A stretch of DNA of 64,000 bases from Lachnospiraceae bacterium (lineage in GTDB: Bacteria; Bacillota; Clostridia; Lachnospirales; Lachnospiraceae). The DNA lies in contig JAGBBP010000036.1 in the NCBI GenBank assembly GCA_017938405.1, positions 62,001 to 126,000 on the forward strand, written 5' to 3'. Below are positions 21,390 to 53,464 of this stretch, piece after piece; within the stretch, counting starts at the first letter, position 1; each line of letters begins with the position of its first letter. Made by a program: the position numbers and the translations under genes. A model generated the notes under the pieces. That model saw nothing but the letters and a program-made list of their open reading frames with translations, did not search any database and was not told the origin of the DNA.

Positions 21390-21620
21390 TTTTGTGCTAT
21401 ACATTTCTAATTTAGATTTCTTTCTTCTGCCCTTTCAGAAAGGTCGAAAATAGAATTATCGAAGGAAACCATAAGGAAACGTCGGTACTTGGCGAGGTGT
21501 TTTCGAGCCTAGTATCCGCTACGTTTCTGCATGAGCGAGAGCGCGTTTCCGTAGATAATTCTATTTTCCGACCGTTTGTATCGGGGAGAATAGAAATCCT
21601 GACGACAGTATAGCACAAAA
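21390..21620. repeat. Large hairpin repeat element, copy 1
   Basis: A 231-base element with terminal inverted repeats of 13 bp (TTTTGTGCTATAC at 21390-21402 and GTATAGCACAAAA at 21608-21620), imperfectly paired arms inside (GGTCG-AAAATAGAATTATC against GATAATTCTATTTTCCGACC), and a core (21462-21555) shared with copy 2 at 51663-51754. In the core, GGAAAC/GTTTCC and GAAACGT/ACGTTTC helices and the conserved single-strand-like blocks CTTGGCGAGGT, TTTCGAGCCTAGTA and GAGCGAGAGC are seen. It fills the gap between the TIGR03960 gene and the divergent zinc-ribbon gene. Open frames through it are repeats, not genes. No known RNA family was recognised. Confidence 0.8.
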
Positions 21621-21635
21621 TCCCCTTTCCGTAAA
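21607..21635 (-). promoter_or_regulatory. Possible promoter reading into hairpin copy 1 and TIGR03960
   Basis: On the minus strand TATACT (21607-21612) lies 17 bases after TTTACG (21630-21635, four of six consensus bases). If used, the element would be in the 5' leader of the radical-SAM operon. Confidence 0.35.
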
Positions 21636-51607: not shown

Positions 51608-51802
51608 CCTCCTCCTAGCGGTTCTTTAGTTGTCGAAAAAAAGGGCACTGTCACCATTCTAAAAAGAACCTTAAAGCAACGTCAGCACTTGGCGAGGTAG
51701 TTTCGAGCCTAGTACTGCTACGTTGCTGCAAGAGCGAGAGCGGGTTCTTGTAGAATGGTAACAGTGCTCCTTTTGGACGACTTTAGAACCGTTTGGAGGA
51801 GG
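51608..51802. repeat. Large hairpin repeat element, copy 2
   Basis: A 195-base element. Outer arms pair over nearly 50 positions with few interruptions (CCTCCTCC at 51608-51615 with GGAGGAGG at 51795-51802, then CGGTTCT/AGAACCG, CACTGT/ACAGTG, ACCATTCTA/TAGAATGGT). The core at 51663-51754 matches copy 1 (21462-21555) at about 80 percent. Helices GAACC/GGTTC and GCAACGT/ACGTTGC replace GGAAAC/GTTTCC and GAAACGT/ACGTTTC of copy 1, that is, both strands change together. It lies between the rny terminator and the aminotransferase promoter. Confidence 0.8.
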
Positions 51803-51854: not shown

Positions 51855-53414
51855 TTACTTCGCGTAATCCGTAGCCTTTGTCTCACGAACCACGTTAATC
51901 TTAATCTGTCCCGGATATTCCAGTTCAGATTCAATCTTTTTCGATAAGTCACGAGCGAGTAATACTAAATCGTCATCGGATACCTGTTCCGGTACTACCA
52001 TGACACGTACTTCTCTACCTGCCTGAATTGCAAAGGACTTATCTACCCCCTTAAAGCTGTTGGCAATATCTTCTAATTGTTTCAATCTGTTGGTGTACGC
52101 TTCAAGCGTCTCACGTCTTGCGCCCGGACGGGCTGCGGAAATCGTATCGGCTGCTTGTACAATACATGCAACCAAAGTCTGCGGTTCTACATCACCGTGG
52201 TGAGATTCTACCGCATTAATCACATTTGCGGACTCCTTGTACTTACGGCACAAATCCACACCGATCTGTACATGAGTACCTTCCATTTCATGGTCAACGG
52301 ACTTACCGATATCATGCAGTAAACCTGCACGCTTCGCAAGTCTGGTATCAACACCGATTTCACCGGCAATGAGACCGGATAAAATCGCAACTTCAATGGA
52401 GTGCTTTAATGCATTCTGACCGTAACTTGTACGGAACTTCATACGACCAAGGAGTTTAATTAACTCCGGATGGATGCCGTGTACGCCAACTTCCAAAGCG
52501 GCGGATTCACCTTCTTCGCGAATCATGGTATCCACTTCCTTCTGCGCCTTCTCTACCATCTCCTCGATTCTAGCCGGATGAATACGGCCGTCAATAATGA
52601 GCTTTTCAAGCGCAATTCTTGCAACCTCTCTCCGAATCGGATCGAACCCGGAAAGCACGACTGCCTCCGGAGTATCGTCAATGATAAGTTCCACGCCTGT
52701 TAAGGTTTCTAATGTACGGATATTACGGCCTTCACGACCGATAATACGTCCCTTCATTTCGTCGTTCGGTAACGGAACAACGGAAATGGTAGATTCTGCC
52801 ACATGGTCAGCCGCACACTTCTGAATCGCGGTTACGACGTATTCCTTCGCCTTCTTGTCCGCTTCTTCCTTTGCACGGGATTCCATTTCCTTAATCATAA
52901 GGGCAGTCTCATGCTTTACATCTTCCTCAACAGATTTAATAAGATATTCCTTTGCTTGTTCGGAGGTTAATCCGGAAATCTTTTCAAGCTCATGAAGCTG
53001 CTTCTGGTGGAATTCTTCCATCTCTTCTTTGAGTTTATCCAGTTCTGCTTCCTTGAGGCTTAACTTACTCTCCTTCTTTTCCAGTGCGGTAGCCTTCTTA
53101 TCAACGGCTTCTTCCTTTGACAAGACACGCTGCTCATAGCGATGTAATTCGGCACGCTGTTCCTTCGCTTCCTTCTCAAGTTCATTCTGAGCTTTCAGCT
53201 TTTCTTCCTTAATTTCCAGCGTTGCTTCCTTTTTCATGGTCTCAGCCGCTTTTAAAGCTTCGTTCTTTATGTCCCTTGCCATGCTCTCTGCCGAACCAAT
53301 TTTCGCTTCCACAAACTTCTTGCGGAACCCGATTGCCAAAAACCAGCAAATAATACCGGCTAAAACTGCAGCTCCCACGCAGGCAATAATCAGCACATAT
53401 AACTCTACCTTCAC
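51855..53414 (-). CDS. rny: Ribonuclease Y
   Basis: Membrane-bound endoribonuclease that starts mRNA turnover in Firmicutes. Order: N-terminal membrane anchor (about residues 4-26), a long charged coiled coil (30-190), KH domain (about 205-270; [16 protein letters not shown]) and HD domain (about 335-430; [25 protein letters not shown]). The likely start is GTG 53414, eight bases after AGGAGG; the frame also has a GTG at 53423 inside the ribosome site. Length of 519 residues is normal. Confidence 0.96.
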
Positions 53415-53464
53415 GGAAAACACCTCCTTTATTCAATTTTCATTGTACATAATACAACATAATA

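Follow-up and report, generated by a model that had tools for sequence, protein, structure and literature searches.

A widespread, apparently undescribed hairpin family with a conserved folded core in Lachnospiraceae, best read as MITE-like mobile DNA

The window copy and its conserved fold

The window, the whole stretch of 64,000 nucleotides that was analysed, starts at C34:62001 of a Lachnospiraceae genome (G000). It carries a minus-strand operon of TIGR03960, TIGR03936 and rng-like genes with a sigma-70-type promoter (TTTACG-17-TATACT, extended -10) at 21607..21635 on the minus strand. A hairpin element (copy 1) lies at 21390..21620 and was assigned to the plus strand by its GNRA mini-hairpin. 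Copy 2 lies at about 51608..51802 on the plus strand, just downstream of the RNase Y gene (rny, 51855-53423, minus strand). A covariance model, R1, was built from 11 cores and matched the core of copy 1 at 21454..21563 on the plus strand (G000:C34:83454-83563) with 111.4 bits; the core of copy 2 was matched at 51654..51761, also on the plus strand, with 122.2 bits.

A preliminary description of copy 1 had claimed 13-bp perfect ends, imperfect self-complementary arms and a core common to a second locus; every feature that it named was present and the observation as a whole was confirmed. The ends are located at 21390..21402 (left outer arm TTTTGTGCTATAC, plus strand) and 21608..21620 (right outer arm, minus strand). 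Between them a further pair of 24-nt arms, 92% complementary, forms a locus-specific inner stem, with the 5' strand at 21446..21469 and the 3' strand at 21545..21568 of the plus strand. The sequence CTTGGCGAGGT..TTTCGAGCCTAGTA was found at 21488 and 51688 with 2 mismatches (0 expected in shuffles), and the block GAGCGAGAGC, described as invariant, at 21533 and again at 51732. The conserved P3 region, CTTGGC-GA..TCGA-GCCTAG with its conserved T.T mismatch and tandem G.A, occupies 21488..21514, and the mini-hairpin GC-GAGA-GC occupies 21533..21542, both on the plus strand. Folded as RNA, the 231-nt element reached -94.2 kcal/mol (z -9.35); folded as DNA it reached -53.8 (z -8.73). In neither case did any of 200 shuffles do as well. 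The earlier view of a structured element rather than a gene was right, and true compensatory changes are seen in its pairs.

Folded on one strand, the core of about 90 nt consists of the GNRA mini-hairpin and a long helix that is interrupted by a T.T mismatch, tandem G.A and a bulge of 2 nt. Covariation within the genome was counted over the 12 copies with an intact core (L013 left out) from a first alignment made with MAFFT and not fitted to the structure; 95.7% of cells were paired and 15 of 33 pairs had changed on both sides. Among 97 distinct copies from many genera, double changes affected 31 of 33 pairs and 96% of cells were paired; the latter value is biased upward, since this alignment had been fitted to the structure. 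Control structures slid by 1-3 columns were 34-47% paired in the same 97 copies. The mini-hairpin has two pairs that change together; its loop is GNRA in nearly all of the 97 copies, with a purine at the third loop position almost without exception, a preference that would suit RNA as well. Compensatory base-pair changes as expected of a new structured RNA, the absence of which had been named beforehand as an argument against one, were found in both sets, and the conserved fold of the core is real. In copies L148-L155 of genome G296 an extra apical hairpin (AGCGAATT..AATTCGCT) replaces the short P3 loop.

Pairing was compared with that of SRP RNA from 30 genomes of the family, in which the variable pairs were G.T in 15.4% and A.C in 0.6% of cells. 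The corresponding values for the core were 1.6% and 1.3%, with most A.C confined to one column. G.T pairs were therefore about tenfold rarer in the core than in the SRP RNA of Lachnospiraceae, well below the G.U frequency usual for RNA, although the comparison is only approximate since the SRP control structure was an RNAalifold prediction and was not fitted. Outside the one column the core held 49 G.T and 13 A.C, so one folded strand is favoured in the core, be it RNA or single-stranded DNA. The arms held 103 G.T and 129 A.C over all loci, and 22 and 23, respectively, as single changes in a young family of genome G007, and thus gave no sign of RNA-level selection. The long arms behave as DNA palindromes without strand asymmetry.

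Distribution, gene context and mobility

A genome-wide BLAST search with the element returned 13 copies, with similarity limited to the core of about 90 nt (80-91% identical). Both copies noted in the preliminary description are real, but the genome total is 13. Outside the core each of the 13 has its own arms, which are nearly always base-paired; one copy (L009) has lost one side of the element and another (L013) has a second repeat inserted in its core. With the covariance model, 0 to 28 copies per genome were found in ten genomes of the genus. The core was present in 123 of 299 Lachnospiraceae genomes, with 1 to 43 copies each, so the further copies in related genomes that had been proposed as a test exist. 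In a sample of the phylum it was present in 5 of 399 genomes, four of them Lachnospiraceae and one outside the family. No Rfam family matched the element at gathering or relaxed thresholds, in agreement with the earlier remark that no known RNA family was recognised. Phage and plasmid collections held no match to the element, and viral contigs held none to a strict core pattern; a looser pattern gave 11 chance matches in viral contigs, which were rejected by the covariance model. No description of the hairpin was found in a search of a literature library that covers a minority of subscription papers. The hairpin family is real and widespread, and apparently undescribed so far.

All four gene arrangements were found around the core, which has no fixed strand relative to a gene. 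In tandem contexts 28 cores were antisense and 9 sense; 39 of 57 loci had the 3' end of a gene to the right of the core. Nine of the 13 genome copies (L001, L002 and L005-L011) are beside or near translation or RNA-metabolism genes, namely metG, pheS, typA, pnp, rimM/khpA, rpmG-secE (rpmG identified by eye), rpsJ, rny and the rng operon. No excess of such neighbours was seen at 28 loci of other genera, so the association may reflect retention beside conserved genes rather than function. A neutral mobile element accounts for neither the antisense bias nor the translation and RNA-gene neighbours. Replication-strand bias in G186 (21 vs 15) was not significant, and the skew of this genome has more than two switch points.

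Genome G007 contains 21 near-identical copies of 193 bp with common ends (GTAACAGTTCAGCC..GGCTGAACTGTTAC) and unrelated flanks, several of them with 8-bp target duplications. Duplications of 8 bp were also found in G276, from another genus (CACAATTA, TAATAATC and TTTTCCAT), and the young copies of both genomes have GTAACAG..CTGTTAC ends. Of 19 candidate end pairings, which include some non-elements, 8 agreed at 7 or more of 8 bases; mismatched pairings did so in 4 of 342 cases. One-ended GTAACAG sites were also seen in G007, at least some of which proved to be truncated copies. Different ends (AGGTAATTGCGAAAC) were found in G196, with a perfect 14-bp duplication at one copy, and an additional end type (GGAAATCAATTTTCAG) occurs on the same core in G276. 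Within the genus, L012 and L082 hold a 215-bp element that is 95% alike in sequence, with flanks that are not shared. Several properties of MITEs are present: the element is short (193-231 bp) and has no protein-coding gene, terminal inverted repeats are common to the copies of the young families of G007, G276 and G196, and target duplications are of fixed length, 8 bp with GTAACAG ends and 14 bp in G196. The arms of the window copy are common to no other copy, and no target duplication was recognisable beside it. The element is best read as mobile DNA of a known class, MITE-like.

No protein recurred beside the copies as a cis-encoded partner, and searches for a parent transposase or for an autonomous insertion sequence with matching ends returned none. 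IS66 had been hinted at by the GTAA ends and 8-bp duplications and was rejected as the mover, with no PF03050 (IS66) gene in four genomes. A 1.84-kb "autonomous" candidate in G276 was resolved into an IS4 element nested in a core, plus an element pair flanking a PHP gene. An IS4 element nested in a core was the only transposase seen. At L332 (375-1691) an IS4-family insertion sequence with ends ATGCCATTAAGTTAAG lies within an element core, with an apparent 11-bp duplication, GCACTTACGCA.

Stem evolution and the window site

Over 68 distinct loci, arm complementarity was locus-specific and had faded at a distance of about 125-145 nt from the core. At orthologous sites in the genus, identity was 0.88-0.97 in the core vs 0.29-0.86 in the arms. 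In the L002 group every orthologue retains its own helix variant, so simple gene conversion between copies fails to explain the conservation of the core. Divergence in the young G007 family was 4.6-6.7% in the arms and 1.2% in the core. The arms of this family held 10 paired double changes vs 1 unpaired, with about two doubles of any kind expected, and its founder, compared with single copies, has a perfected stretch beside the core in which CGT has become paired TTT. Template switching is a described process by which an inverted copy can arise and a stem can be repaired in a single event (PMC8794818); the paired double changes and the perfected founder stretch fit such a process. The stem differs at every site, apparently because it has been rewritten by backward copying of neighbouring host DNA. 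L007 and L012 also showed inverted similarity that extends into host terminators, as did L008 on visual inspection.

The repeat inserted in the core of L013 was found inside the cores of L045 and L056 as well, and orthologues at the same sites are without it. This second dispersed repeat of about 80 nt (CTCCGYRGGATGCGCACTCGCGC..GTCGCAAGCGAC..GTTTCGCAAGCGAAAC, with GCAA loops) is present in 10 of 10 genomes of the genus and matches no Rfam family. It is nested in element cores at L013/L176, L177, L178, L179 and L195, and stands alone, after a hairpin and shortly before a start codon, at L186, L187, L190, L193 and L200. Inverted pairs of cores about 95-500 nt apart (L094, L163, L167, L208, L209 and L210) could be inverted duplications of the whole element via the same copying process.

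G000 and G004 carry the element at the window site; in six of eight congeners (G001, G003, G005, G006, G007 and G008) the site is empty. Empty sites keep the operon promoter region, and with it the bases that make up the element's right 13-bp end; the left 13-bp end is present at filled sites only and is an inverted copy of the -10 region of the native promoter. On its left side the orthologous copy in the sister genome G004 carries the promoter in inverted form, from -35 to beyond -10; its left arm scored 37 against the inverted promoter flank of element-free G001, with a null maximum of 26 (0 of 500 shuffles). The window copy gave an exact 13-bp inverted promoter match against element-free G005, which 0 of 500 shuffles reached, and a weaker match against the other congeners. 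Judged from these alignments, the 13-bp ends of the window copy are the native promoter and its inverted copy, not functional RNA ends.

The minus-strand promoter suspected in the preliminary description matches the consensus and is conserved in congeners without the element. With it the TIGR03960-rng operon would have the element in its leader, as had been proposed; the element is mobile and six congeners have an empty site, so its presence in the leader is not conserved. The insertion at this site would have come to lie between the operon and its native promoter. Since the element parts the promoter from the TIGR03960 start codon, the leader of the operon transcript would be rich in hairpins and measure about 300 nt; it would exceed the leader of element-free congeners by approximately one element length. 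A conserved leader function was refuted, the element being neither conserved at the operon nor fixed in strand; a local effect on TIGR03960-rng expression is possible.

Interpretation and known systems

The element is probably a mobile, MITE-like hairpin that keeps its folded core conserved and has its stem extended and repaired by fold-back template switching. Transposases would act in trans to move it. During replication fold-back, template switching at the hairpin would copy one side onto the other, and such copying would extend and repair the stem and could yield new terminal repeats. The core may be retained through some factor that recognises the folded single strand, DNA being more likely than RNA. 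A further and rather doubtful proposal is a stem-swapping mobile element of a new kind, with a core that is tied to no single transposase and moves with several unrelated transposition systems, because fold-back copying rewrites the stem and takes up new terminal repeats and host promoters.

Several observations would also suit a structured RNA of a new class, regulatory or acting in trans, that is carried by mobile copies, with the plus strand transcribed, the fold selected as RNA and the long stem serving as an RNase III-like processing helix. The GNRA rule is obeyed in nearly all of the 97 mini-hairpins and their closing pairs co-change, core pairs outside one column include more G.T than A.C, the core is conserved at orthologous loci by translation and RNA-metabolism genes, and the RNA fold is strong. 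This reading is nevertheless unlikely, given the roughly tenfold scarcity of G.U-type pairs relative to the SRP RNA of the family, the lack of strand asymmetry in the arms, the absence of a fixed orientation or gene and the antisense bias in tandem contexts.

The core might instead be an insertion unit that targets the tips of pre-existing host hairpins, for example terminators, so that the arms are target halves. Locus-specific arms, several of which overlap terminators, and the preference of gene 3' ends for one side agree with this, but empty alleles of the window site hold only the right half (the promoter) and not the left, and the arms travel with the core in G007 and G276; such targeting is improbable. 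A cis-regulatory leader of the TIGR03960-rng operon, riboswitch-like or an attenuator, is hardly credible. The operon transcript would indeed contain the element, given the conserved minus-strand promoter at its edge, but six of the eight congeners have an empty site with the promoter kept, the folded strand with the GNRA loops is the opposite strand, and elsewhere the element is found in either orientation and also downstream of genes.

If a MITE-like hairpin with a rewritten stem is the true explanation, a small mobile element can escape reliance on one transposase, and such elements can duplicate host promoters in inverted form. Template switching could then also leave DNA with covariation that merely looks compensatory, and RNA discovery that relies on covariation should take this as a warning. 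The hundreds of copies across a dominant gut family, at sites that are occupied in some genomes and vacant in others, form a catalogue in which these proposals are testable.

Integron attC sites and IS200/IS605 ends are folded single-strand substrates, and a conserved fold with mismatches and bulges and a variable stem sequence is found in them as in the element. The element is like the structured RNAs of Rfam in its covariation, GNRA mini-hairpin and tandem G.A; unlike them it matches no family, has few G.U pairs and has mobile copies. Bacterial MITEs include RUP, Correia/NEMIS and ERIC (reviewed in PMC2229807). The element resembles these in being short, non-coding and intergenic, in its strong hairpin, and in the terminal inverted repeats and target duplications of its amplified families. 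It differs in a core that is conserved independently of the terminal repeats and common to copies with differing ends and duplication lengths, in a stem private to each locus, and in having no known parent insertion sequence. A core independent of its ends is not known from any described family, and neither are private, host-derived stems. Hairpins shaped by template switching (PMC8794818; quasipalindrome mutations, PMC7202029) share with the element the inverted copies of neighbouring DNA, the paired multi-base changes and the few G.U intermediates; those are single genes or sites, whereas here a dispersed mobile family is involved and a host promoter has been copied.
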